From Lachnospiraceae bacterium (GTDB lineage Bacteria; Bacillota; Clostridia; Lachnospirales; Lachnospiraceae): a stretch of DNA of 62,592 nt. Where the stretch lies: NCBI GenBank assembly GCA_017621075.1, contig JAGATV010000022.1:1-62592 (forward strand). The letters run 5' to 3'. The translations under genes and the position numbers were made by a program. How positions within the stretch are numbered: position 1 is the first letter of the stretch; every line of letters begins with the position of its first letter. Below are positions 8,993 through 21,578 of this stretch, piece after piece. The notes below the pieces were generated by a model, which ran no database searches, was not told where the DNA came from, and worked only from the letters and a program-made list of their open reading frames with translations.

Positions 8993-9911
8993 TGCAGCAC
9001 CTATTCTTACGGTGGAAGGTCTGAAACAGTACTTTAAAGTAAGCAGCAGTTACACAGTGAAAGCTGTGGAAAATGTATCTTTCAAGATTTATCCCGGTGA
9101 GACCTACGGGTTGGTAGGAGAATCCGGTTCCGGTAAGTCCACCATTGGAAGAAGCGTGATCCGGCTGTACGATCCCACTGCCGGCAAGATCGTGTTTAAC
9201 GGCGTGGACATCAGCGGAAAGTTAAGCAAGGAGAAGAACAATGCCCTTAGGACCCAGATGCAGATGATCTTCCAGGACCCTATGGCATCTTTAAATCCCA
9301 GAAAGAAGATCGGCGATATCATCGGGGAAGGGCTGGATATCCATCATGCTTACAAGAACAATGCAGAGCGTGAGGAGAAGATCAAGGCGATCCTTGAGAA
9401 GGTAGGGCTTGCTCCGGAGCATGCCACCCGTTATCCCCACCAGTTCTCCGGCGGACAGAGGCAGCGTGTGGGCATTGCCCGGGCGTTGATCATGAATCCC
9501 AGGCTTATCATTGCGGATGAGTGTATTTCCGCACTGGATGTGTCCATTCAGGCACAGGTAGTAAACCTGATGAAGGATATCCAGGAGGAGACCGGTACAG
9601 CGTACTTGTTCATCGCCCATGATCTGTCCATGGTAAAATATATCTCTGACCGTATTGGAGTATTGCATCTTGGACACCTGTTGGAGACCGGCACTACGGA
9701 GGAGATCTTTGCCAATCCCATCCATCCGTATACCAGGAGTCTGCTTTCTGCGATTCCGGCGCCCAACCCTGTGGTAGAAAAGAACCGTATCGCGCTGGCT
9801 TATGACTACAAGACTTCCGGCATCGACTACAACAAGGGCACGGAACATCTGGTAGCAGGCACACATTTCGTGAAATGTACGGACGAAGAATTTGACAAGT
9901 GGACGAAATAA
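8976..9911 (+). CDS. oppF: Oligopeptide ABC transporter ATPase
   Basis: A 311-residue ATPase and partner of OppD. Walker [12 protein letters not shown]-loop MIFQDPMASLNPRKKIG, signature FSGGQRQRVGIARAL, Walker B IIADECISALD (a Cys replaces the usual Pro after the Glu, common in this branch), H-loop IAHDLSM, and the C-terminal HPYTRSLLSAIP block. GGAGG within the oppD end serves as ribosome site. Translation is probably coupled through the 17-base overlap. The operon ends at the terminator at 9957. Confidence 0.93.
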   Translation: MAVDYNAAPILTVEGLKQYFKVSSSYTVKAVENVSFKIYPGETYGLVGESGSGKSTIGRSVIRLYDPTAGKIVFNGVDISGKLSKEKNNALRTQMQMIFQDPMASLNPRKKIGDIIGEGLDIHHAYKNNAEREEKIKAILEKVGLAPEHATRYPHQFSGGQRQRVGIARALIMNPRLIIADECISALDVSIQAQVVNLMKDIQEETGTAYLFIAHDLSMVKYISDRIGVLHLGHLLETGTTEEIFANPIHPYTRSLLSAIPAPNPVVEKNRIALAYDYKTSGIDYNKGTEHLVAGTHFVKCTDEEFDKWTK

Positions 9912-9956
9912 CCTGATCAAAGTTTTCAATATGTTTTACAAGGAACAAAAGGATTT

Positions 9957-10002
9957 CGGAAGGGAGCCTTGCCAACGGGCAAGGTTTTCCTTCCGATTTT
10001 TT
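9957..10002 (+). terminator. Terminator of the opp operon
   Basis: Stem beginning CGGAAGG and closing CCTTCCG, with inner CCTTGCC / GGCAAGG around AACG, followed by ATTTTTT. Confidence 0.88.
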
Positions 10003-10028
10003 GCTGCAGGAAATTTGAAAAAATGGTG

Positions 10029-10057
10029 TTGACATAGAAGAATACTTATGCTATTAT
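10029..10057 (+). promoter_or_regulatory. Promoter of the iclR-like gene
   Basis: TTGACA (10029-10034), 17-base spacer, TATTAT (10052-10057). A transcript would start near 10064, directly before the palindromic sites at 10075-10099. Confidence 0.85.
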
Positions 10058-10074
10058 ACAAAAAAGCAAAAAGG

Positions 10075-10099
10075 GGAACAGTGTTCCGAATATAGGAAC
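10075..10099 (+). promoter_or_regulatory. Palindromic operator candidates (GGAAC half-sites)
   Basis: Three GGAAC half-sites alternate in direction: GGAACA-G-TGTTCC (10075-10087) and GTTCC-GAATATA-GGAAC (10083-10099) share the middle half-site. They lie 10-35 bases after the predicted transcription start and before the iclR ATG. IclR proteins commonly bind such palindromes; autoregulation here is inference. Confidence 0.55.
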
Positions 10100-10110
10100 G
10101 AATGTAGGAT

Positions 10111-10851
10111 ATGGATGATAACTATTTACAGACAGTTGAGAAGGCATTAACTGTATTAAAGTATGTGGCAGAAGCTGACAGACCTATAGGAGTCACAGAG
10201 GTCAGTAGGGCATTGAACTACAGTAAAACTGCTTCCTTTCGTTTTTTGGAAACCTTGGAGCATCAGCGTTTTTTATTCAAGAGGCCGGACGGAAGTTATG
10301 AGATTGGCCCACAGGCTGCTTATGTCGGGCGCAGATTCAAAGCCAATGATGTTGTGAAGGAAGCACTTCTTCCAATTATGTCAAAGTTGCGGGACCGCTT
10401 CAATCTGGGTGTGCAGTTATGTACTCTTTCGCAAAACAAAGTAGTTGTTGTGGAGTATTTACACAGCAGCTCCGTCATTCAGATCAAATCTGAAGTAGGG
10501 ACCAGCCTATCTTTGAACACTTCTGCGGCTGGGAAGTTGATCCTGTCAAAAATGCCGGATGGTGAGGCAATAGATTTTATCAGCACCATGCAGTTTGAAA
10601 GATGCACGGAATATTCTATCTGTGACCCGGATGCTTTTCGAAAGGAAATCAGAGATGTAAGGATGGTAGGATATGCCACGGCTAAACAAGAGTGGGCTCC
10701 GCATACATTTGCGATTGCAGTACCACCGCCTTATGAGGGAATGGAGGGATTTGCCATTGTTCTTTTGGCCCCTATCGCATCCATTGATTCCACGCCGGAT
10801 GGCATCAGGGATCTGTACCGTAAAATAGAAGAAACAATGCAAACATTTTAA
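10111..10851 (+). CDS. IclR-family transcriptional regulator
   Basis: A 246-residue IclR-type regulator. Residues 5-65 form the winged helix (TVEKALTVLKYVAEADRPIG, then VTEVSRALNYSKTASFRFLE and RPDGSYEIGPQAAYVG). Residues about 75-245 are the effector domain (LRDRFNLGVQLCTLSQNKVV, TSAAGKLILSKMP). The family binds small acids or other catabolites and controls adjacent catabolic genes. It is followed by a terminator and then by the ArcS-like and nucleoside transport operon in the same direction, its likely target. The effector is unknown; a purine-derived ligand would fit the context. Confidence 0.88.
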   Translation: MDDNYLQTVEKALTVLKYVAEADRPIGVTEVSRALNYSKTASFRFLETLEHQRFLFKRPDGSYEIGPQAAYVGRRFKANDVVKEALLPIMSKLRDRFNLGVQLCTLSQNKVVVVEYLHSSSVIQIKSEVGTSLSLNTSAAGKLILSKMPDGEAIDFISTMQFERCTEYSICDPDAFRKEIRDVRMVGYATAKQEWAPHTFAIAVPPPYEGMEGFAIVLLAPIASIDSTPDGIRDLYRKIEETMQTF

Positions 10852-10862
10852 AGTAGACAAAG

Positions 10863-10891
10863 ACGTCATTCTAAAAGGATGACGTTTTTTT
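10863..10891 (+). terminator. Terminator between iclR and the ArcS-like operon
   Basis: ACGTCATTC (10863-10871) pairs with GGATGACGT (10877-10885), one wobble pair, 5-base loop, followed by a run of T. The next gene's AGGAGG begins only a few bases later, so no promoter fits between terminator and gene: the operon must be read through it or from a promoter inside iclR. Confidence 0.82.
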
Positions 10892-10908
10892 ATTGAGGAG
10901 GAAAAAAG

Positions 10909-11841
10909 ATGACAAGAGAAGAAATGGTAGAAATTTCAAAAACAAAACCGGCGTATCCGTTTCAAGTGGATGAAACTCTGACTTATTATTCTCCACAGGA
11001 AAATATAGATGCGTTACAGAATCCGGAAGTGGTTGCGTTCCAGGAGGAATTGCTCTCTACTTACGAGCCAGAGCTTCCTAAGGGAAAGGTAACACTTCTG
11101 ATTCTTCCCTGCGCAAAGCACAAGCCGTATCCCATCAGCGCAGAGCACCTTTGTGTTAATAAGATGTTGTTAGAAGACGGGTACAGACCTATAGGGAAAG
11201 GAGATTATCCTTCGGAATTGGTGAAATCCCTTCCACAAGGATATCCGGAAGAAGTATTGAATAATTCTCTTTTAAAAAAGGGTAGTCATTACATTCACAG
11301 GATGGTGGTTTCAGAGCCTATGGGCGTAGTTCCTTACGAGTATGTGTACTACTACGGAGGAAAGCAGTCTGTGTCGGCACGCTACGATGATCCGGGACTC
11401 TTTGAACACAGAGGAACTGCTGCTTCTCCCTGGAGAGATGATTGTACCGCTGTTCTGGTAAACGGAAAATACAAGTGGGGGGTCAATGAGAAGAAAGCTT
11501 ATGCGCAGGTGCATAACAGTTTGTCCAAGATCATTTATGAGGAGCTCTCCAGAATTGCTGATCGTTATGACCAAATTGTTGCTTATGTTGCACCGAAGAT
11601 GACCCATCGCAGTTTTCTTACCAGCAGGGAAGAAAAGAAAGAATCGGGGCTTCGGCAGAATGTGCTGGCAGGCAATGAAAGGTTGAAACTGATCGGAGCC
11701 AATGATTATAAAAAAGGTTTGGTAAGGCTTGTACCAACTATGAAAGAATTGGAAGAGATCAGGGAAAAAACAGGAAAATCTGTCGCCGTGCCATTAGGAC
11801 TTCCGGAATCCCTGGAAATCTTAAAGAACATTGTTAGTTAA
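10909..11841 (+). CDS. ArcS-like protein (archaeosine synthase catalytic domain, DUF5591 type)
   Basis: A 310-residue soluble protein. Residues 67-80 match the archaeosine synthase signature PC-X3-KPY-X2-S-X2-H exactly (P67, C68, K72, P73, Y74, S77, H80). A second ArcS-like block follows (VVSEPMGVVPYEYVYYY, then ARYDDPG), and a third near IVAYVAPKMTHRSF. In archaea ArcS attaches lysine to the nitrile of preQ0 in tRNA, with a TGT-like N-terminus and a C-terminal PUA domain. Both are absent here, leaving only the catalytic core plus about 60 N-terminal residues. It is the first gene of an operon for nucleoside import and base deamination (overlapping or closely spaced genes to 19640). The true substrate is unknown; processing of an imported 7-deazapurine is my inference. 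Confidence 0.7.
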   Translation: MTREEMVEISKTKPAYPFQVDETLTYYSPQENIDALQNPEVVAFQEELLSTYEPELPKGKVTLLILPCAKHKPYPISAEHLCVNKMLLEDGYRPIGKGDYPSELVKSLPQGYPEEVLNNSLLKKGSHYIHRMVVSEPMGVVPYEYVYYYGGKQSVSARYDDPGLFEHRGTAASPWRDDCTAVLVNGKYKWGVNEKKAYAQVHNSLSKIIYEELSRIADRYDQIVAYVAPKMTHRSFLTSREEKKESGLRQNVLAGNERLKLIGANDYKKGLVRLVPTMKELEEIREKTGKSVAVPLGLPESLEILKNIVS

Positions 11842-11879
11842 AATTTTTAACTATAAAAACATGCAGGAGGAGAAAAATT

Positions 11880-12878
11880 ATGAGAAAAAGAAGTAAACTA
11901 GTCAGCTTATTGGTAACAGGTATGTTAACAGTCGCTCTGTTATGCGGATGCGGTAACAGCTCCACCAAAGACGAAAGTGCCCAAAAGGCTTCTGAGGAAA
12001 GCCTCAAGGTGGCACTGGTATTGTCCGGTTCTGCAGATGATCAGTCTTTTAACCAGAATGCGTATGAGGGATTGATGAAGATTGAAAAAGAATTGGGATG
12101 TGAGGTAGCATATTCTGAAAATACGGCAACTGCCGATGAGGAAAAGACGCTCCGTGCTTATGGAGATGCGGGATATGATGTGATCATCGGACATGGCGGG
12201 GAATACAGCGATATCATCCAAAAGGTAGCCCCGGATTATCCGGACAGTCTCTTTATCATTCATACAGGAACCGTATATGGAGACAATTATGCGTCTTTAA
12301 AGGCAAGCACCTATGAGAATGCCTATCTGGCAGGTGTGTTGTCAGCCTTTATGACCAAGAGCAACAAGATCGGTTGTGTGGCAGGATTTGATTTCCCTGA
12401 TATCGTAAAAGAGATGAATAGTTTTTCCCTGGGAGCTCAGTCCGTCAATCCCAATCTGTCTGCCGATCCTATCTACTTAGGTTCCTTTGACGATGTGAGT
12501 CTGGGAAGTGAAGCGGCAGCAGCTCTGATCAATTCAGGGGTGGATTTTATCTATGAAAATGCAGACGCTGCAGGCGTAGGTATCATCAACGGCTGCAAGG
12601 ACAGCGGAACTTATGCGGTGGCTAACGGTGCAGGCAAAGTAGATCTGGCCCCCGAATCAGTTATCGCATATACAAAGGTGGATTACGGGCGAATGGATTA
12701 TCTTGCGATCCAGGCTATTAAAGAGGGGACCTTCAAGTGTGATGTCCATGTGTACGGCCTTGAAACAGAGGTTATCGACCTATGCATGGTGGGAGAGGGT
12801 ATCAGCGAGGAAGCCAAGGAAGCTGTGGCAAAGGCAAAAGAAGATATCATCGCAGGAAAGATAACATTTGAGGAATGA
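11880..12878 (+). CDS. BMP-family nucleoside-binding lipoprotein
   Basis: A 332-residue basic membrane protein (BmpA/PnrA/NupN) type binding lipoprotein. The signal MRKRSKLV plus hydrophobic run ends in the lipobox LLCGC (C24). The ligand-site motif SADDQSFNQNAYEG (about residues 50-65) is the hallmark of purine-nucleoside binders. The sequence YENADAAGVGII (about 220-232) replaces the usual aromatic and Gly-rich segment, which may alter specificity. GGAGGAG precedes the ATG. It supplies the ABC importer encoded by the next three genes. Confidence 0.9.
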   Translation: MRKRSKLVSLLVTGMLTVALLCGCGNSSTKDESAQKASEESLKVALVLSGSADDQSFNQNAYEGLMKIEKELGCEVAYSENTATADEEKTLRAYGDAGYDVIIGHGGEYSDIIQKVAPDYPDSLFIIHTGTVYGDNYASLKASTYENAYLAGVLSAFMTKSNKIGCVAGFDFPDIVKEMNSFSLGAQSVNPNLSADPIYLGSFDDVSLGSEAAAALINSGVDFIYENADAAGVGIINGCKDSGTYAVANGAGKVDLAPESVIAYTKVDYGRMDYLAIQAIKEGTFKCDVHVYGLETEVIDLCMVGEGISEEAKEAVAKAKEDIIAGKITFEE

Positions 12879-12899
12879 TCTATCTGAAGGGACAAGTAT

Positions 12900-14414
12900 A
12901 TGAAACTGTTAGAGCTAAAGGACATTTCCAAACAGTATGGAACAATGTATGCAAATGACAAGATAAGCCTTCAAATGGAAAAAGGTGAAATACGGGCACT
13001 GCTTGGTGAAAATGGTGCCGGTAAGACCACTTTGGTCAAGATGATCTGCGGACTGTCTAAGCCCACGGAGGGAGAAATCTTCTGGAAAGGGAAGAAAGTA
13101 GATTTTCATAATCCCTCAGAGGCCAGAAAATGCGGGATTTCCATGGTGCATCAGCACTTCATGCTGGCAGATGAATTGACGGTATTGGAAAATATCACCT
13201 TGGGCATCTCCCATATCGGAGCGGTTCCGGATTACAGGAAGATCAAAGAAAAAGTGACAAGACTAATGGATTCAGTGGGACTTTCCGTCCCACTGAACCT
13301 AAAAGTAGGAGACCTATCCATCGGATTTAAACAGAGAGCCGAAATTGTCAGAGCCTTATATAACGGAACGGAATTATTGATCCTGGATGAGCCCACTGCG
13401 GTTTTGACGCCACAGGAGATAAAAAATCTTCTGGAGGTATTGCGGACATTGAAGGAGCAGGGCTGTTCCATTATCCTGATCAGCCACAAACTGAATGAGA
13501 TCATGGAAATATGTGACAGTGTATCCATTTTGCGTGATGGGCGGCTGATCCAGACCCTTGCCATCTCATCTACTGATACCAATGAACTTGCCCGATTGAT
13601 GGTTGGGCGTGAAGTCAACATGAAATTGGAAAAGGCGGTGGCTGAAAAGGGAAAGCGGTTGTTAAAAATAGAAAACCTGACTGTGAAAGATGACTTTGGA
13701 ACCCGAAAGGTAAAAAAGTTGAATCTTGAGATCGCAGAGGGCGAGATCGTAGGAGTGGCCGGCGTGGAAGGTAACGGACAGAAGGAATTGGCAGACTGCC
13801 TGTTCGGTGTTCGTAAACCTGAGGAAGGACATGTCTACTTTGAAGAGGAGGACATTACTTTCTATTCGGCCAGACAACGCAGGAACATCGGTATCGGACG
13901 GGTCCCGGAGGACCGTCAGAAGACAGGGCTGATCATGGGATTTTCCGTAAACGAGAATCTGAACAGTGAATCCTATATGCAGCGGCCCTATTCCAAAGGA
14001 GGCATGCTGAATCCCGGGAAGATGATGGAATTTTCCCATGAAATGATTAAAAGATTCGGAATCAAGGTTATGGATGCAAGAGAGGCGGTGGATGCCTTGT
14101 CCGGAGGAAACCAGCAGAAGGTGATCCTTGCAAGGGAGTTGTGCTTCTCCCCCAAGCTGCTGATCATTGTCAATCCTACCAGAGGGATGGATGTAGGAGC
14201 ATCAGAGTACATTTACCAGAAGATTTTTGAACTAAAAAAACAAGGCAGTGCTGTTTTGTTGATATCGACGGAGTTGGATGAGATCCTGACATTAAGCGAC
14301 AGGGTGGAGGTCATCTTTGACGGCAACATGATTGGCAGCACGGAAGCGACGGGTGATCAAATATGGGAAATAGGAAGATTGATGGCAGGAATAAAACCGG
14401 AAGCGAAAGAGTGA
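12900..14414 (+). CDS. Nucleoside ABC transporter ATPase, double domain (NupA/YufO type)
   Basis: A 504-residue protein with two ABC domains. The N-terminal domain has Walker A GENGAGKTTL, the variant signature LSIGFKQRAEI, and Walker B LLILDEPTAVLTP. The C-terminal domain begins near residue 255 (LLKIENLTVKD), has a degenerate Walker A (GVEGNGQKEL), signature LSGGNQQKVILAREL and the variant Walker B LLIIVNPTRGMDVG. One complete and one degenerate ATP site is usual for the RbsA/NupA branch. It energises the two permeases downstream. Its end overlaps the next gene by 52 bases. Confidence 0.92.
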   Translation: MKLLELKDISKQYGTMYANDKISLQMEKGEIRALLGENGAGKTTLVKMICGLSKPTEGEIFWKGKKVDFHNPSEARKCGISMVHQHFMLADELTVLENITLGISHIGAVPDYRKIKEKVTRLMDSVGLSVPLNLKVGDLSIGFKQRAEIVRALYNGTELLILDEPTAVLTPQEIKNLLEVLRTLKEQGCSIILISHKLNEIMEICDSVSILRDGRLIQTLAISSTDTNELARLMVGREVNMKLEKAVAEKGKRLLKIENLTVKDDFGTRKVKKLNLEIAEGEIVGVAGVEGNGQKELADCLFGVRKPEEGHVYFEEEDITFYSARQRRNIGIGRVPEDRQKTGLIMGFSVNENLNSESYMQRPYSKGGMLNPGKMMEFSHEMIKRFGIKVMDAREAVDALSGGNQQKVILARELCFSPKLLIIVNPTRGMDVGASEYIYQKIFELKKQGSAVLLISTELDEILTLSDRVEVIFDGNMIGSTEATGDQIWEIGRLMAGIKPEAKE

Positions 14415-15457
14415 TAGCGATATTTATTATTGTTGCAGCAATATTGACAGCGCTCCTTTTAGGCTCTGTATTTATTGCAATATCCGGGGAAAATCCTATT
14501 AAGATCTATATCCAGCTTGTAAAGGGGGCGTATGGAAGCAATGTCCTGCGTGGAATCACTATATCCAAAATGGCAACGTTGCTGCTGGTGGGACTGGGCG
14601 TAGGCATCGCCTTCAAATGCAATCTTGTGAATATAGGAGGGGACGGGCAACTGCTCATGGGGGCATTGGGGAGTGCGCTGGCAGCTTTATATTTGGACAA
14701 TATACCAACCATGCTCCATATCCTCCTGTGTTTTCTGATGGGGTTCCTCTTCGGGGCGGTATGGGGAATGATAGCAGGTTTGCTGAAAGCTTATAAAGGT
14801 ATGAGTGAAATGATCACAACGATCATGCTAAATTATATTGCGACCTGGTTTGTGAGTTTTCTGGTAAACGGGGTGCTGAAGGATACAGAAAGCAATTACC
14901 CGTATCCTTGGACACCTGAAGTGCCGGACCGTTTAAAGCTGGCATCATTGTTTGGAACAAGAGTGAACATCGGAATTCTTATCGCATTGGCTATTGCGGT
15001 GGCGATCTTCTGGTATCTGCGCTATACTGCTTCGGGTTATGAGCTGAGAGCCAGCGGAAAAAATGCGGAGGCTGCTTCCTTTGTGGGAATTAATGTGAAT
15101 CGATCCGTGGTAAAAGCAATGGCTCTTAGCGGAGGCCTTGCAGGTATGGCGGGAACCGTAGAATTGTTGGGCTCCCAGTTCAGGGTTAGTGATACCTTTG
15201 CAAACGGCTACGGTTTTGACGGAGTTGCAGTGGCATTTTTGGCAAACTCCAATCCCATAGGAACGATTTTTTCCTCCTTTTTCTTTTCCTCCCTGCAATG
15301 TGGTGCGGAGAATGTGGCACGTATCACCAATGTATCAAGCTCCGTATCCGGAATTATCCAGGGACTTATCATCCTCCTGATACTGATAGGAACCTCAAAG
15401 AAACTAAACAGGGTGATGAAAGGCGTATTAGAAAGGAGGAAAAAACAGCATGAGTGA
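14363..15457 (+). CDS. Nucleoside ABC transporter permease (NupB/YufP type)
   Basis: A 364-residue permease of the BPD_transp_2 family with about nine hydrophobic helices. Landmarks are NPIKIYIQLVKGAYGS, the stretch GIAFKCNLVNIGGDGQLLMG and the motif LRASGKNAEAASFVGINV (about residues 228-245), typical of purine-nucleoside permeases. The ATG at 14363 lies inside the ATPase gene. A GTG at 14411 that overlaps the ATPase stop as GTGA and follows GGAAG is an equally possible start and would remove 16 residues. It pairs with the next gene product. Confidence 0.9.
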   Translation: MGNRKIDGRNKTGSERVIAIFIIVAAILTALLLGSVFIAISGENPIKIYIQLVKGAYGSNVLRGITISKMATLLLVGLGVGIAFKCNLVNIGGDGQLLMGALGSALAALYLDNIPTMLHILLCFLMGFLFGAVWGMIAGLLKAYKGMSEMITTIMLNYIATWFVSFLVNGVLKDTESNYPYPWTPEVPDRLKLASLFGTRVNIGILIALAIAVAIFWYLRYTASGYELRASGKNAEAASFVGINVNRSVVKAMALSGGLAGMAGTVELLGSQFRVSDTFANGYGFDGVAVAFLANSNPIGTIFSSFFFSSLQCGAENVARITNVSSSVSGIIQGLIILLILIGTSKKLNRVMKGVLERRKKQHE

Positions 15458-16379
15458 ATTGTTGGCACAAAGCATCCTTTCGGTGGCATTCTGGCACTCG
15501 GCCATCCGCTTGTCCGTGACTACGGGAACGGCAGCACTTGGTGAAGTATATGCGGAGAAATCAGGAACGGTAAATATCGGCCTGGAAGGCATGGTGTTAA
15601 CGGGGGCTTTCTTCGGAGCCGTGGGCTCTTACTATACCAACTCTCCATGGGGCGGACTTTTGCTGGCAGCAGTTTCGGGAATTGTCATGGCACTGATCCA
15701 TTCTTTGGTGACTGTATTTCTGTCTGCCAATCAGGTGGTTGCAGGAACTGCGATCAACATTCTAGCTGCCGGCATCACTACATTCCTAAACGGAATCTTA
15801 TTAAAGCATGTAAGCAATATCCCTACTTTTTCCAACTTCGCCATTCCGGGGTTGAGCAGGATTCCTTTCGTGGGAGAGATTTTTTTTGATCAGAACATAT
15901 TTGTCTATTTGCTGTATGTCATGATCTTTGTTACCTGGTTCCTGATGAAGAAAACCAGACTGGGGCTGTACCTTCGGACTGTGGGGGAAAACCCAAAAGC
16001 TGCGGACAGTCAGGGGATATCGGTAATTCGGACCAAACTGACAGGAATGATGATCTGTGGTGTATTGGCTGCAATCGGCGGTTCCTTCATGCCACTTTTC
16101 CAATTGGGACTGTTTTCACAAAATATGAGTGGCGGACGTGGCTTTATTGCGTTGGCAGTTGTCATTGTGGGTGGTTGGAAACCAAGCCTCAGTGTGTTGA
16201 CTGCTCTTTTGTTTGGCATGGTGGAGGCATTTACCTACACTTTTCAGACCTGTTATCCGGAGGTGCCTTATCAGATGGTCATGATGCTTCCATACATCAT
16301 CACTATCGTGGTATATGTATTTATGACAGGAAAGGCAAAGGCACCTGCCGCATTGGCGATTCCATACGAAAAAGAATAA
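15450..16379 (+). CDS. Nucleoside ABC transporter permease (NupC/YufQ type)
   Basis: A 309-residue permease. It shows the family landmark LGEVYAEKSGTVNIGLEGMV (residues 31-50), then ANQVVAGTAINILAAGITTF and the coupling segment LRTVGENPKAADSQGISV. AGAAAGGAGG lies within the end of the preceding gene, and the two genes overlap by 8 bases, so translation is probably coupled. It completes the importer: lipoprotein, double ATPase, two permeases. The MATE gene follows after 6 bases. Confidence 0.91.
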   Translation: MSELLAQSILSVAFWHSAIRLSVTTGTAALGEVYAEKSGTVNIGLEGMVLTGAFFGAVGSYYTNSPWGGLLLAAVSGIVMALIHSLVTVFLSANQVVAGTAINILAAGITTFLNGILLKHVSNIPTFSNFAIPGLSRIPFVGEIFFDQNIFVYLLYVMIFVTWFLMKKTRLGLYLRTVGENPKAADSQGISVIRTKLTGMMICGVLAAIGGSFMPLFQLGLFSQNMSGGRGFIALAVVIVGGWKPSLSVLTALLFGMVEAFTYTFQTCYPEVPYQMVMMLPYIITIVVYVFMTGKAKAPAALAIPYEKE

Positions 16380-16385
16380 GAGAGA

Positions 16386-17723
16386 ATGATCTTTATGGGT
16401 GATAATATCAAAATGATGGAGAATGTGTCGGAAAAGAAGGCACTTTTGGCCTTTGGTCTCCCGACTGTAGTGGGAATGCTCTCTACAGGAATCTACAATC
16501 TTATAGATGGATTATATGTCGCAAGGCTCAGCACGGAGGCTATGGATGCGGTTTCCATCATGTATCCTATTGTGACTCTCATATCGGGACTGGGACTGCT
16601 GATCGGAAACGGAGCTGCGGTATACATATCGGAACTCTTGGGCAAGAAGAAGCGGCAAGAGGCGGAAACCGTACTTGCCACTGCACTGTTTACCAGTCTG
16701 CTTTTGGGGATCGCATTACAGTTGTTCCATCCGTTTTTAAAAAACATCTTGTCGTTGATAGGTGCGACGGAGGAAATTCTTCCTTATGCGCTTCCTTATG
16801 CCAGAGTTGTGTTCCTTGGGTTCATATTTCAACTATTGAGTGTATGCATGATGAATCTGGTGAGGGCAGAAGGACAGGTGTATCTCAGTACCTTTTCAAT
16901 GCTGATCGGGGCAGGGGTCAGTATTGTGGCAGATCCCATTGCTATCTTTACTTTAAAGGGGGGCATTATAGGAGCAGCATGCGTCAATGCGCTTTCACAG
17001 TTTGTCTCCTTCTTGGTGCTGGCTTGCTTCTATCTGGGTAAGAGAAGTGCGTTGAGGATATCTTTCAGAAAGATTTCTTATCGGGCGGAATTTGTGAAGC
17101 CCGTGCTGTCGGTCGGGATTCCGGTTTTCTGTGTGAACTTGTTCCAATGCCTTTCCAGCGGGATTGCCAATATACTGGCAAAGCCCTTTGGCGTCAATGG
17201 GTTGGCGGCACTGGCCATAGCTAATAGGATGTTGAATCTTTCCGTGCTGGGAATTACCGGTTTTGCCAGGGGCTATCAGAATCTGGCTTCCTATAATTTT
17301 GGCGCAGGCAGGGGCGGAAGGCTGCGGGAGATCACCAAGCTTGCTATTGGTTGGACTACAGGAATCTGTGGATGTGTGGCTGTTTGTCAGATGATCTTTG
17401 CCGGAAGCATTGCAGGAGCTTTTTCGACGGAGCAGGAGGTCATTGCCTTGGGAAGAAAAGCACTTTTCTGCGGCAGCATTCTGTTGGTCACTTATGGCTT
17501 TCAATCGGTAGGCAGCGTGTATCTGCTCTGTATACACAGGCCGAAGGCAGGGCTGGTGTTCAGCATTGCAAGACAGGGGATCTTTTATATTCCTTTGATT
17601 CTGTTATTGTCAGTGGTGTTTGGGCTTAACGGGATCTTTTATACACAGCCGCTGGCCGATTTTTGTACCACCATCGCATTGATCTTATATCTTAAGCATA
17701 TTCAAAAGGAGCAGGAAAGTTGA
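16386..17723 (+). CDS. MATE-family efflux transporter (in the ArcS-like operon)
   Basis: A 445-residue MATE exporter with about 12 helices. It starts with the MATE block LPTVVGMLSTGIYNLIDGLY and carries the second-half repeat motif GITGFARGYQNLASYNFGAG. It exchanges Na+ or H+ for a drug or metabolite; the substrate is not predictable. The start is uncertain: ATG at 16386 has only a weak GAGA upstream, and ATG at 16395 or 16413 is possible. Its place between an importer and a deaminase suggests export of a product or toxic analogue, which is inference. Its TGA overlaps the TTG start of the next gene. Confidence 0.86.
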   Translation: MIFMGDNIKMMENVSEKKALLAFGLPTVVGMLSTGIYNLIDGLYVARLSTEAMDAVSIMYPIVTLISGLGLLIGNGAAVYISELLGKKKRQEAETVLATALFTSLLLGIALQLFHPFLKNILSLIGATEEILPYALPYARVVFLGFIFQLLSVCMMNLVRAEGQVYLSTFSMLIGAGVSIVADPIAIFTLKGGIIGAACVNALSQFVSFLVLACFYLGKRSALRISFRKISYRAEFVKPVLSVGIPVFCVNLFQCLSSGIANILAKPFGVNGLAALAIANRMLNLSVLGITGFARGYQNLASYNFGAGRGGRLREITKLAIGWTTGICGCVAVCQMIFAGSIAGAFSTEQEVIALGRKALFCGSILLVTYGFQSVGSVYLLCIHRPKAGLVFSIARQGIFYIPLILLLSVVFGLNGIFYTQPLADFCTTIALILYLKHIQKEQES

Positions 17724-18988
17724 GCAGGTTACAGGCATTCAGAGGAAATTACATAGATACACCGGAGTATGGGATCTTGGAAAAATTTTCCGGCTATCTT
17801 ATTGCGGAGGACGGAGTAATCCGGGATAGGAGGACAGAGCTGCCTGACGGGTGGAACGGTGAAATGACGGACTTTGGAGATGCTGTTGTCATTCCTTCCT
17901 TTTGTGACGTGCACCTCCATGCCGGGCAATATGAGAATATTGGGATCGGTTATGATCATCAGTTGTTGGAATGGCTTGAGAAATATACTTATCCTACAGA
18001 AAAGAAGTTTTACGACCTGGAATATTCCAAAAGTATTTACAAAAGGCTGCTCCGGGAGCTTTGGGAGGTAGGCACACTGCATTTTATCAGTATGTGCACG
18101 GCCTCTACAGACTCTACAGCCCTGTTTATGGATCTGATCGCAGAGAGTGGGCTTGAGGCTTATGTGGGCAAGCGGAATACGGATTATCAGATCACTACTA
18201 CCGATAACGAAGATACAGAAACTTCCTATTTGGGCACCTTGCAGCTTTTACAGGAAAAGGGGGAACAGTATGAAAATGTGCGCTACATTCTCAGCCCATC
18301 CTTTGTTCCCGGCTGTACGGAGGAAATGTTGGGACGCCTTGGGCGTCTTGCGGAAAAAACGATGACTCCGGTGCAGTCCCATCTGGACGAAACCCTTAGT
18401 GAGATCCAACTGGTAAAAGATCGATTCCCGGAAATTTCTTCTTATGCGGCTGTGTATGAGAAGTATCATATCATAGGAAAGAGCAGGACCATCATGGCTC
18501 ATTGCAATTATATCGGGGATGACGAAATAAGACTGTTGAAGAAACATCATGTTATGGTTGCGCATTGTCCATGTTCAAATCTTGATCTGGGCAGTGGGAT
18601 CATGCCTTTGCGGAAACTGAAGGATGCCGGACTGGAGATCGGTTTGGGAAGTGATATTTCGGGCGGGCATACATTGAACCTTGCAACCGTCATGAAGACC
18701 GCTGTGGAGGTTTCAAAGCTACGCTATCTTGCCAACCCACAAGAATCTCCGGCTACCATTCCGGAAGCATTATATTTGGCGACAAAAGGCGGTGGAGCAT
18801 TTTGGGGCAATACCGGAAGTTTTGAGAAGGGCTATTCTTTTGATGCTCTGGTAATATGCGATGAGGATACCGGAAGGTTAAACCTGCAAGAGAGGTTGGA
18901 AAAATTCATATATGCCGGCGACTATAGACAGATTAAGGCCAGATACCTAAAAGGTGTCAGATTGGACAGGCCTTGTTTTAGCGAGTAG
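17720..18988 (+). CDS. Amidohydrolase, guanine-deaminase-like
   Basis: A 422-residue zinc amidohydrolase. Metal and catalytic residues are present in the order H65-x-H67 (DVHLHAGQY), H221 and E224 (QSHLDET), H261 (IMAHCNY) and D312 (GLGSDISGG). LLEWLEKYTYPTEKKF and AHCPCSNLDL match guanine deaminase closely over the full length. The base-contact Gln of HAPQY is kept (Q70), but the Arg of the family TPRF motif is a serine here (SPSF, S194), so a substrate other than guanine is possible. Translation starts at TTG 17720, overlapping the MATE stop as TTGA, with AAGGAG upstream. Confidence 0.82.
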   Translation: MSRLQAFRGNYIDTPEYGILEKFSGYLIAEDGVIRDRRTELPDGWNGEMTDFGDAVVIPSFCDVHLHAGQYENIGIGYDHQLLEWLEKYTYPTEKKFYDLEYSKSIYKRLLRELWEVGTLHFISMCTASTDSTALFMDLIAESGLEAYVGKRNTDYQITTTDNEDTETSYLGTLQLLQEKGEQYENVRYILSPSFVPGCTEEMLGRLGRLAEKTMTPVQSHLDETLSEIQLVKDRFPEISSYAAVYEKYHIIGKSRTIMAHCNYIGDDEIRLLKKHHVMVAHCPCSNLDLGSGIMPLRKLKDAGLEIGLGSDISGGHTLNLATVMKTAVEVSKLRYLANPQESPATIPEALYLATKGGGAFWGNTGSFEKGYSFDALVICDEDTGRLNLQERLEKFIYAGDYRQIKARYLKGVRLDRPCFSE

Positions 18989-19004
18989 AGAAAAGGAGAA
19001 GAAG

Positions 19005-19640
19005 ATGCAGGAACATTATGTGATTACCATTGCAAGAGAATTTGGCAGCGGAGGAAAAGAAATCGGCGTGAAGGCAGGAGAACTTCTGGGAATCCCCTGC
19101 TATGAAAAGGAAATCATGACAAAGGCATCTGAGTACAGCGGACTAAAGGAGGAATTATTTGAGAATGTGGATGAGAGGCTACGGGGAAATATTCTGGCAA
19201 AAAAGCTTCTCAGAGTGCCCAAGGAGTATGTGGTGGAACCCGTAGGTAAGACTTTTACCTCTGACGATAATCTTTTCCATATTCAGGCGGAGATCATAGA
19301 GGAACTTTACAAGACAGAATCCTGTATCATTGTGGGAAAATGCGCAGATTCTGTGTTGATAAGGAGGTGGAATACTATCAGCGTTTTTATAGGCGCACCC
19401 TTTAGGGATTGTGTACATTCCATTATGGAACGAATGAAGGTGCCAGAGGCCAAGGCGCAAAAGCTGGTGAAAGAAACCAATAAATATAGGGCAGACTATT
19501 ACAAATACTACACACGGGGAAAAGACTGGAAGGACCCTATGAATTATTCTCTGTATTTGAACAGTGCCAAAGTGGGAAGAGATATGTGTGCACAGATTAT
19601 TGCCGATTATGCGAGAGCAAAATTTAAAGATCTTATTTAA
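19005..19640 (+). CDS. Cytidylate kinase-like protein
   Basis: A 211-residue P-loop protein of the cytidylate-kinase-like family found often in Clostridia. The N-terminal phosphate-binding motif is REFGSGGKEIG (R11-G21), and a second motif IIVGKCADSVL (about residues 106-116) precedes the lid helices. True Cmk proteins are larger and have a different NMP domain, so the substrate is open; a role in phosphorylating the imported nucleoside is inference from the operon. The ATG at 19005 has AAAGGAGAAGAAG upstream; frame extension upstream into the previous gene has no ribosome site. It is the last gene of the operon, with no clear terminator following. Confidence 0.8.
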   Translation: MQEHYVITIAREFGSGGKEIGVKAGELLGIPCYEKEIMTKASEYSGLKEELFENVDERLRGNILAKKLLRVPKEYVVEPVGKTFTSDDNLFHIQAEIIEELYKTESCIIVGKCADSVLIRRWNTISVFIGAPFRDCVHSIMERMKVPEAKAQKLVKETNKYRADYYKYYTRGKDWKDPMNYSLYLNSAKVGRDMCAQIIADYARAKFKDLI

Positions 19641-19730
19641 TTTCTGCTTTCATTTTGAAGTAAAATGTGATATATTAAAAAATAGGAATTATTACTATTT
19701 TACCACAGAGTGAAAGAAGGGATCAGGATT

Positions 19731-20393
19731 ATGAACAAAAACGCATTTCGTCAGTTGTCTTATGGAGTTTATGTGGTAAGTACCTGGGATAAGGGAAGAG
19801 CCACGGGCTGTACCGCCAACAGTGCCATGCAGATCACATCGGAACCTGCAACCATTGCGGTGAGTATCAATCACGATAATTACACCAATCAATGCATCCG
19901 GGAAAACGGGAAATTTGCTATTTCCATTTTGGGGGAGCATTCCGATCCGGGTATCATCGGAACCTTCGGTTTCAAGAGCGGCAGGGATAACAATAAATTC
20001 GATGAAGTAGAGCAGGCCGTGAAGGGTTATATGCCTGTGGTGGCAGATGCCTGCGCCTATATCGTATGCGAAGTGATCGATAAGATGGAAACCTCTACCC
20101 ACACAGTCTTTCTGGGCAAAGTAGTGGATGCGGATATCCTGAAGGAAGACGCGGCCATGACCTATGCTTATTACCACAATGTCATCAAGGGAAAGAGCCC
20201 TAAGACGGCGCCTACCTACATTGCTGAGGAAACACCGGCTCCTTCTACAGACGGCCCCAAGGAGACAAAGAAAGAGTATGTCTGCGGAATCTGCGGCTAT
20301 GTTTATGACGGGGAGATTCCTTTTGAGGAGCTTCCGGATGACTATGTGTGCCCGATCTGTAAGCAGCCAAAGTCGGTATTCAAAGAGAAATAA
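19731..20393 (+). CDS. hrb: Flavin reductase-rubredoxin fusion (high molecular weight rubredoxin type)
   Basis: A 220-residue two-domain electron carrier. Residues 1-150 form an FMN-binding flavoredoxin domain ([12 protein letters not shown], then [20 protein letters not shown]). Residues about 167-220 form a rubredoxin domain with two CxxC pairs, [12 protein letters not shown] and [10 protein letters not shown], which bind one Fe. In clostridia such proteins pass electrons from NADH-dependent reductases to flavodiiron or other oxygen-scavenging proteins. ATG 19731 is chosen over an in-frame GTG at 19710 because AGAAGGGA (19714-19722) lies 8 bases before it. The gene appears monocistronic. 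Confidence 0.88.
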
Positions 20394-20459
20394 GATTCAA
20401 AGTGAATAATAAGAGTGATCAAATAAAAGTTGCAGAGCAAAGCTCTGTCTCAAGGCAAT

Positions 20460-20822
20460 TCTGACGGAATTTCCAATAGAAAACAATAATAAGGGTGTAT
20501 CTTTGCCGGTCATGATTGGAGAATCCGTCAGATATTCATTATGCAATGTCGCTTGATCCCTATCATAACTTTAGTGCTGTATTTTGAGATAAAGCCATGG
20601 GATGGGCCCAGGGATCTGAAAGATATGATGGATATGAAGGGCTATCCGGGGGCGCTAAAGGAAATGATACTGGATGGACAAAAATACGGAGAACAAATAG
20701 GACAGCAGAGAGTCAATGCTTTGAACATGCTTTTGGTGGAAAAGGGTCGCATACAGGATATGATACAATCTGCCGGTGACAGGGCCTTTCAGGAGGAACT
20801 GTTTGCAGAATTCGGATTGTAG
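20460..20822 (+). pseudogene. Remnant of an Rpn/YhgA-family (PD-D/ExK) nuclease gene
   Basis: A 93-codon frame from 20541 encodes RLIPIITLVLYF and WDGPRDLKDMMD, which match the conserved core of recombination-promoting nucleases (YhgA/Rpn, once annotated as transposases). It then jumps to a C-terminal tail with QRVNALNMLL and ends AEFGL. About 200 residues are missing. Just upstream, in another frame (20527-20544), SDIHYAM resembles the segment that normally precedes the core, so at least one frameshift and a large deletion have occurred. Its 3' end overlaps the end of tadA by 34 bases. Probably non-functional. Confidence 0.6.
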
Positions 20823-21331
20823 GAAAGAGATTCTGCCTTACGGCGGGCTTCCTTCTCCAGCTTATTCCGCTCTCTTAATCCTGTGAAGAACACTTTCAGG
20901 ATATCGCTGCACTCCCGCTCTAAAATGCCGCGGGTAACCTGGACCTGATGATTGAACTGTGGCATTTCCAGGATGTTTAAGATGGAACCGCCGCAGCCGG
21001 CTTTGGGATTCATGCAGCCCATGACTACTTCGGGAATCCGTGCCTGTACGATGGCGCCGGCACACATCTGGCAGGGCTCCAGGGTCACATACAGGGTACA
21101 ACCCTCCAGGCGCCAGTCGCCAATTTTTTTACTGGCCTTGTTGATGGCGGTGATTTCTGCATGGGCCAGGGTGTTTTTGTCGGTGTTGCGGCGGTTATAG
21201 CCTCTGCCGATGATCCTGCCTTCATATACGATGACACAGCCGATAGGCACTTCCCCCAGGGCAAGTGCCTTTTTTGCCTGTTTCAAGGCTTCTTTCATGT
21301 ATTTTTCCTGTACGCTGGTAAAGGCGGGCAT
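20789..21331 (-). CDS. tadA: tRNA-specific adenosine deaminase
   Basis: A 180-residue zinc deaminase that converts A34 to inosine in tRNA-Arg(ACG). The HAE motif (H57-A58-E59) and PCxxC motif (P86, C87, C90) are intact, and GEVPIGCVIV, NTLAHAEI and GCMNPKAGCGG are TadA-type. Start at ATG 21331: AGGAG lies 6 bases upstream. A longer frame upstream adds residues unlike the family. The tail after residue 155 is rich in charged residues. Confidence 0.93.
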   Translation of the reverse strand: MPAFTSVQEKYMKEALKQAKKALALGEVPIGCVIVYEGRIIGRGYNRRNTDKNTLAHAEITAINKASKKIGDWRLEGCTLYVTLEPCQMCAGAIVQARIPEVVMGCMNPKAGCGGSILNILEMPQFNHQVQVTRGILERECSDILKVFFTGLRERNKLEKEARRKAESLSYNPNSANSSS

Positions 21332-21431
21332 AGCAATCTCCTGTTCGTGGTATCCGGGCAAAAAATATCCCGGAACATATTATTGTATTTAGTATAAAAA
21401 AGAATAAAGTATGTGTCAAGAAATGTCCGGC

Positions 21432-21460
21432 TTGCGAAATCCTTCATCTTATGTTATCCT
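21432..21460 (+). promoter_or_regulatory. Promoter of the phosphorylase gene
   Basis: TTGCGA (21432-21437), 17-base spacer, TATCCT (21455-21460). About 110 bases of untranslated leader follow before the ATG at 21579. Confidence 0.6.
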
Positions 21461-21578
21461 AAGAAACGTAAAAATCGGACAGCTTTGTATTAGCAGGAAG
21501 AAAAAAAGGAAATGATGATAGAAAAGGCGTCCTGTGCGGGAGTATGTTCTGCCCGGGACACAGTGACAGGAGGTAAAC

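Follow-up and report, generated by a model that had tools for sequence, protein, structure and literature searches.

A gene on a 62,592-nt contig of a Lachnospiraceae bacterium (JAGATV010000022.1, assembly GCA_017621075.1; the whole stretch is called the window below) encodes a stand-alone DUF5591 protein, the core of archaeosine synthase (ArcS), and stands behind an IclR-family regulator in an operon with an importer, an exporter, a deaminase, and a kinase-like gene. We tentatively favor, at somewhat less than even confidence, the reading that this operon imports and breaks down a guanine-like heterocycle, most likely a 7-deazaguanine substituted at C7 (preQ0 or the corresponding amide, amidine, or acid), whose C7 group would be the target of the ArcS-like enzyme. 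The known settings of DUF5591 are tRNA modification in archaea and some viruses; a stand-alone core in conserved bacterial degradation-type clusters suggests that its chemistry has been recruited for small-molecule metabolism. Organisms across life make 7-deazaguanines in their tRNA and DNA, and the clusters point to a so far undescribed route by which these compounds may be degraded. The initial annotation, made from the sequence by itself, knew of no described pathway with such a gene set; in keeping with it, we found in open-licence papers no bacterial DUF5591 catabolic cluster and no paper on degradation of 7-deazaguanines, and for AF0587 only unrelated papers.

What places the protein in this family? 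The open reading frame (ORF) at 10909–11841 (+ strand) encodes 310 aa, and residues 67–80 (PCAKHKPYPISAEH) match exactly the pattern PC-X3-KPY-X2-S-X2-H, as first reported in the initial annotation; we take this motif to be an ArcS signature. P67, C68, K72, P73, Y74, S77, E79, and H80 are unchanged in all 35 rows of an alignment (A2) of the window with 34 of the 41 genome loci described below. The anticipated ArcS/DUF5591 profile match proved significant: the product passes the gathering cut-off of Pfam PF17884 (31.7 bits against 26, E = 1.6e-7), in a match spanning profile positions 1–42 of 150 only. DUF5591 is matched by 35 of the 35 aligned rows (E up to 1; best 2.1e-9), and within its own genome the 10909 gene is the single PF17884 match. 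The NCBIfam ArcS equivalog models, though, stay far under their cut-offs (NF040592, 31.3 against 440 bits; NF053620, 28.6 against 600); the two models reach the motif region at E = 8.1e-8 and 4.6e-7. The further ArcS-like blocks noticed earlier hold up as well, both in a profile–profile alignment with viral DUF5591 proteins (SEPM..VPYE...YDDP blocks; probability 98.2, E = 6e-14) and in an AlphaFold2 (AF2) model, 135 residues of which superpose on 2q07, a solved DUF5591-type protein, at 2.3 Å, sufficient to assign the fold. That structure, also reached independently by sequence profile (E = 0.0015), came from a second structural comparison, Foldseek alone having returned no match at E 0.001 in the PDB or viral libraries. 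Since profile, profile–profile, and fold evidence concur, a chance motif is ruled out.

Because DUF5591 is the sole Pfam domain found at E 0.1 in the 310 aa, we judge the TGT-like and PUA domains to be absent, as had been claimed. Their absence, together with the lack of a QueC over cut-off in the genome, rules out archaeosine synthesis in this bacterium. The 10909 product is a true stand-alone member of the DUF5591/ArcS-core family and is not an archaeosine synthase. With ArcS (NF040592) it shares the PF17884 core, the exact motif, and the 2q07 fold; it differs in having no TGT-like or PUA domain, in scoring 31 bits against 440, in being bacterial, and in belonging to import/catabolic clusters. 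The bacterial ArcS-like proteins also carry extra conserved blocks (YSPQ[ED]N, DDPGLFExRG, PWRxD, and THRSF) that set them apart from ArcS.

The DUF5591 proteins of the Sulfolobus viruses STSV1 and STSV2 resemble the window protein in being single domains without TGT or PUA in the chain (profile E = 6e-14) but are shorter than 190 aa and have no catabolic neighbors in the stretch seen. The STSV2 gene, whose product is annotated as hypothetical, overlaps the gene of a queuine tRNA-ribosyltransferase (L083:2148-3558), which suggests that the two act as a viral pair in 7-deazaguanine modification; the same DUF5591 gene is present in STSV1 at 95.7% identity. Two viral contigs also encode DUF5591-like proteins that stand alone and carry the complete motif (L060:3055-3672, at 23 bits against the cut-off of 26, and L061:3159-3755). 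A phage origin of the 10909 gene is unlikely: a phage collection gave no match at 1e-5, and in PHROGs three of four proteins matched phrog_34505 alone, weakly (E = 0.0035–0.08). Sequence composition has no sharp break at the operon.

How is the ArcS-like gene distributed? We located 42 loci beyond the window, 41 in genomes of Chloroflexota, Actinomycetota, and Alphaproteobacteria and one on a plasmid. The genome loci were found with exact peptide patterns from a two-sequence alignment (A1), and for that reason diverged homologs will have been missed. The plasmid homolog, from Rhizobium sp. ACO-34A, is 40% identical over 98% and lies near a gene annotated as 8-oxoguanine deaminase. Near the window organism the gene is rare, its own genome being the sole match among 196 relatives, 397 family, 391 class, and 398 phylum genomes (samples that overlap in part). 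The nearest relative, in the Chloroflexota locus L004, is 49% identical, and on a tree of 42 rows (L023 trimmed at the N terminus) it is sister to the window across phyla with support of 100/99. The locus left off the tree for its broken frame, L042 from a metagenome-assembled genome of Rhizobium sp. Q54, has an ArcS-like frame that stops after 94 codons (9989–10270), so that either the gene is disrupted or the assembly is wrong there.

We then asked which genes accompany the ArcS-like gene across all 43 loci, with the window and the plasmid locus included, using ORFs chosen by a custom script and then clustered. Family counts come from cluster-built profiles at more than 120 bits (more than 100 for deaminases), without a random-gene control, and each family was named from one or two of its members. 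Deaminase-type amidohydrolases occur in 31 of the 43 loci, four of them at only 113–132 bits (L030, L038, L039, and L040); this count pools subfamilies, the guanine-deaminase type being found in the window alone and the 8-oxoguanine-deaminase or TRZ/ATZ type in the others. A homolog of 4,5-dihydroxyphthalate (DHP) decarboxylase is present in 28 loci, 26 of them alphaproteobacterial. All 28 of these genes share the strand of the ArcS-like gene, 23 lie within 300 nt of it, and the median gap is 4 nt; the one protein checked against solved structures, from L003, matches 9jp7 (E = 1.7e-47). DHP-type clusters often hold an 8-oxoguanine-deaminase-like enzyme, a class-III aminotransferase, and an aldehyde dehydrogenase too, along with four families counted here over all 43 loci: FAD (flavoprotein) oxidoreductases in 25 (16 within 300 nt), HpaB-like monooxygenases in 24, amidases in 24, and PuuE-like allantoinases in 17, or 25 when PuuE-like and hydantoinase-like enzymes are taken together.

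A second type of cluster, in eight loci from Chloroflexota, Actinomycetota, and two Alphaproteobacteria, carries hydantoinase-like, biuret/RutB-like, DUF1989, and aldolase-II genes. DHP-type (28) and aldolase-II (8) genes never co-occur in a locus, and on the 42-row tree this label changes three times, with the starred branches forcing three changes. If both are decarboxylases, an unrelated enzyme has repeatedly taken over a single step, which would show that the ArcS-like product and aryl-acid decarboxylation are parts of one pathway. The relatives' loci resemble urate/allantoin and pyrimidine degradation clusters in their 8-oxoguanine-deaminase, PuuE-like, hydantoinase-like, RutB/biuret-hydrolase-like, and amidase enzymes; they differ in adding the ArcS-like core and the DHP-decarboxylase homologs, and the PuuE-like, hydantoinase-like, and biuret/RutB-like members that we scanned fall below curated cut-offs (L003 PuuE-like protein, 317 bits against 424.6).

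Neither decarboxylase-type gene is found in seven loci: the window, L004, L018, L024, L026, L027, and L034. A contig ends near the ArcS-like gene in L018, L024, and L026; that gene has a molybdenum hydroxylase nearby in L024, a Rieske oxygenase in L026, and an asparaginase-like gene and a P450 in L034. In L027 a deaminase of the cytidine-deaminase fold (9181–9774) adjoins the ArcS-like gene, another unrelated deaminase family in such a context.

Do these neighborhoods match the window's own? The order of ArcS-like gene, BMP receptor, ATPase, and two permeases in L004 is that of the window, and BMP-type parts, like NMT1-type receptors, occur in 9 of the 43 loci. Retention of the ArcS-like gene with a BMP-type importer is thus seen in some relatives; the idea of six gene types forming a conserved set fails, since no shared cluster took in the MATE exporter, the kinase-like protein, or the subfamily of guanine-deaminase type. 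The only other cluster that the window shares with L004 is a 4-alpha-glucanotransferase, which abuts the ArcS-like gene in L004 (8467–10011) and lies well downstream in the window, probably by coincidence.

Could the window simply hold an ordinary purine salvage operon in which the ArcS-like gene is an incidental passenger? Guanine-deaminase-like, BMP-importer, and kinase-like genes are indeed common purine parts. We nevertheless consider this very unlikely, given that the ArcS-like gene and the same importer adjoin in another phylum, that 38 of the 43 loci contain a gene for an amidohydrolase of deaminase type or for either decarboxylase-type protein, and that the window's receptor and deaminase have each lost a canonical residue. 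The receptor, a BMP/PnrA-type lipoprotein and predicted solute receptor (11880–12878, +; PF02608, 183.6 bits, E = 5.5e-54), belongs to a system built like PnrA/BMP importers and that of AtzT, with a BMP receptor, a double-cassette ATPase, and two permeases, but it lacks the Asp of the GVDxDQ site, where it reads NGAGK. BMP homologs linked to an ArcS-like gene read GWGxDQ there in five of five cases; GVDSDQ is kept in 7x0r (Lbp, canonical) and in an opposite-strand protein of L033. The closest solved relatives of the window receptor are 7x0r first and 6pi5 (AtzT, an atrazine periplasmic binding protein) second. If this Asp is, as we assume, the ribose contact in PnrA, its loss suggests that the linked receptors bind a base or another molecule instead of a plain nucleoside, which makes the nucleoside import of the initial annotation doubtful.

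The deaminase (17720–18988, +; matching clostridial guanine deaminase 2i9u, E = 2.6e-101) departs in a similar way. Like 2i9u and the TIGR02967 family it is a Zn amidohydrolase, keeping the HxH, H, H, D, and E blocks (VHLHAGQY, QSHLDET, AHCNYI, and GSDISGGH align), yet it scores 286.6 bits against the equivalog cut-off of 375.4 and has Ser194 where 2i9u, the human enzyme (2uz9), and seven of seven relatives from the same order have Arg. The replaced residue, in the PRF block, corresponds to the active-site Arg213 of human guanine deaminase. At E 1e-40 the enzyme is absent from all 60 congeners searched, and 7 of 38 other genomes carry it, at no more than 41% identity. With both residues lost, ordinary guanine or nucleoside use is not the simplest reading.

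What would the ArcS-like enzyme do in such a setting? Bacterial DpdC converts a nitrile to an amide. For some phage ArcS homologs, the authors of PMC6884629 consider it possible that they carry out the DpdC reaction as well. In the published accounts consulted, ArcS chemistry is on preQ0 (PMC11298593, PMC5485725, PMC6884629): full-length ArcS of T. kodakarensis transfers lysine to the preQ0 nitrile in tRNA, uses the preQ0 nucleoside very slowly, and accepts its 5'-phosphate as a good substrate (PMC11298593). Because nucleoside and 5'-phosphate are used, tRNA is not essential to the chemistry, and small molecules are feasible substrates, though not a free base in the case of ArcS itself.

On our preferred reading, catabolism of a C7-substituted 7-deazaguanine, the compound would originate from turnover of tRNA or modified DNA and be taken in by the BMP receptor and ABC importer, whose family is established and whose ligand is putative. 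The ArcS-like enzyme would bind the ring, and its invariant Cys68 would attack the C7 group, turning a nitrile or amidine into an amide or acid, as ArcS chemistry and the invariant Cys and Lys suggest; the deaminase, with its guanine-site Arg replaced by Ser, may then strip the ring amino group. Should an acid be formed, it would be a natural substrate for the decarboxylase homolog encoded next to the ArcS-like gene in relatives, and their gene content suggests that an aryl-acid decarboxylase takes off the C7 carboxylate. Hydroxylation at C8 might come first, giving an ortho-hydroxy acid from which loss of CO2 would yield 8-oxo-7-deazaguanine. An 8-oxoguanine-deaminase-like enzyme of the relatives could deaminate the ring or this 8-oxo product, and flavin oxygenases with allantoinase/hydantoinase-like and amidase enzymes could open the ring in urate-like fashion. 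Of these steps, the window organism encodes together only import, the ArcS-like reaction, and deamination; export of an end product may fall to the MATE pump. We offer this order as a hypothesis compatible with the enzymes encoded. The wider claim, that these loci represent a first catabolic pathway for 7-deazaguanines in several phyla, running from import of preQ0-type bases or nucleosides from tRNA/DNA turnover through conversion of the C7 nitrile or amidine to an acid, decarboxylation by one of two interchangeable enzymes, and deamination to urate-like opening, is possible but doubtful. As candidates, the clusters offer about 10 enzymes from named isolates (Kaistia, Bradyrhizobium, Parvibaculum, Martelella, and Herbiconiux), making the question directly testable. 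The initial interpretation is correct in its main lines. Of the salvage or catabolic route for a 7-deazapurine or other modified purine initially proposed, catabolism of a purine-like ring is thus backed by the survey; the 7-deazapurine itself we infer from the DUF5591 family only.

Two alternatives assign the DUF5591 core another task. The ArcS-like protein might be a nucleosidase or base-exchange enzyme that releases the base of a modified nucleoside after import, given that the fold of DUF5591 may be similar to that of uracil/thymine DNA glycosylases; we regard this as unlikely. The clusters might instead degrade another fused 2-amino-4-oxopyrimidine (a pterin or pterin carboxylate) or an oxidized purine, with the core repurposed for that ring. 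Enzymes related to 8-oxoguanine deaminase deaminate pterins, the L008 8-oxoguanine-deaminase-like protein is over its curated cut-off (607 against 532 bits), and the DHP-type decarboxylase homologs point to an aromatic acid that is hydroxylated. Set against this are the preQ0 chemistry of ArcS in the published accounts consulted and the unchanged catalytic motif; we hold this alternative improbable overall, while giving it serious weight.

Several observations weigh against catabolism of a 7-deazaguanine. No 7-deazaguanine genes turned up among the neighborhood representatives annotated, and no search for them was made across all loci; this result also favors the pterin or oxidized-purine alternative, and the L008 score makes a true oxidized purine a possible substrate. 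No decarboxylase gene of either type was found in the stretches examined of the window and L004, and L004 has no deaminase either. A decarboxylase role for the aldolase-II proteins of the second cluster type is a guess: the one scanned, from L028, matches 3,4-dihydroxyphthalate decarboxylase at 54.8 bits (cut-off 200) and a ribulose-phosphate epimerase at 54.5, both far below cut-off. Most of the loci are alphaproteobacterial and not independent, and the window and L004 both sit on long branches, so that their sisterhood may be inflated. The free preQ0 base is not used by T. kodakarensis ArcS (PMC11298593), and the window receptor looks unsuited to a plain nucleoside, hints that conflict unless recognition involves a phosphate or a different contact to the sugar. 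Degradation of 7-deazaguanines might also look wasteful in this host, to which we now turn.

Does the host make its own queuosine (Q)? Its genome, 87% complete, encodes tgt and queA over cut-off (C36:19304-20419, L078, and C46:9203-10219, L081) and has no QueC or QueF-II over cut-off, on which grounds the organism probably needs salvaged preQ1 or Q. The operon might accordingly perform salvage instead of breakdown, importing a 7-deazaguanine nucleoside or archaeosine and remodeling C7 to feed tRNA queuosine, a reading for which the host genes, the importer, and the ArcS-like enzyme speak. We find it quite unlikely: the deaminase would destroy the ring amino group, the gene's relatives sit in degradation-type clusters, and dependence on salvaged Q is a common trait, whereas the gene is confined to this one genome in all the relative, family, class, and phylum samples above. 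A scan of positions 9500–21500 with Rfam gave no match, and therefore no preQ1 riboswitch there.

How is the operon laid out? The neighbors named in the initial annotation (IclR, BMP importer, MATE, guanine-deaminase-like, and cytidylate-kinase-like genes) were all confirmed by Pfam/NCBIfam, and from the IclR gene through the kinase-like gene all are on the + strand and close-packed, with gaps of 57, 38, 21, -52, -8, 6, and -4 nt and then a 35-nt overlap (-35), which becomes about +16 nt if the kinase-like gene begins at ATG 19005. The IclR-family regulator (10111–10851, +) is over cut-off for PF01614 and PF09339. Behind the receptor gene follow an ABC transporter ATPase with a double cassette (12900–14414, +; PF00005 in two stretches), two BPD_transp_2 permeases (14363–15457 and 15450–16379, both + and PF02653), and the MATE-family exporter (16386–17723, +; PF01554, and TIGR00797 at 170.9 bits against 147.4). 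The last gene, 18954–19640 (+), encodes a cytidylate-kinase-like protein (Cytidylate_kin2, PF13189, E = 2.2e-45) whose likely start is ATG 19005.

Upstream of the regulator, a hairpin followed by a T run (9955–10003, +; RNA fold -28.8 kcal/mol, z = -5.93, none of 200 shuffles as good) is the likely terminator of an upstream peptide-ABC operon; a consensus scan did not list it. It precedes a promoter-like TTGACA-17-TATTAT with TG before the second hexamer (10029–10057, +; 11 of 12 consensus positions), which is suggestive only, the region holding 20 consensus promoter sites against 16.7 (sd 4.1) in shuffles. A perfect 13-bp palindrome, GGAACA-G-TGTTCC (10075–10087, no strand assigned), separates this site from the beginning of the IclR gene and is a candidate IclR operator and the sole exact match in the window; with up to two mismatches there are five matches against 2.49 expected, a number reached in 10 of 100 shuffles. 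A promoter and a palindrome in this position, immediately ahead of the regulator gene, would suit an IclR operon under autoregulation, although matches to a consensus are weak evidence by themselves. About 70 nt past the operon, on the same strand, a gene at 19710–20393 encodes a flavin reductase with a C-terminal rubredoxin, whose membership in the operon is not clear.

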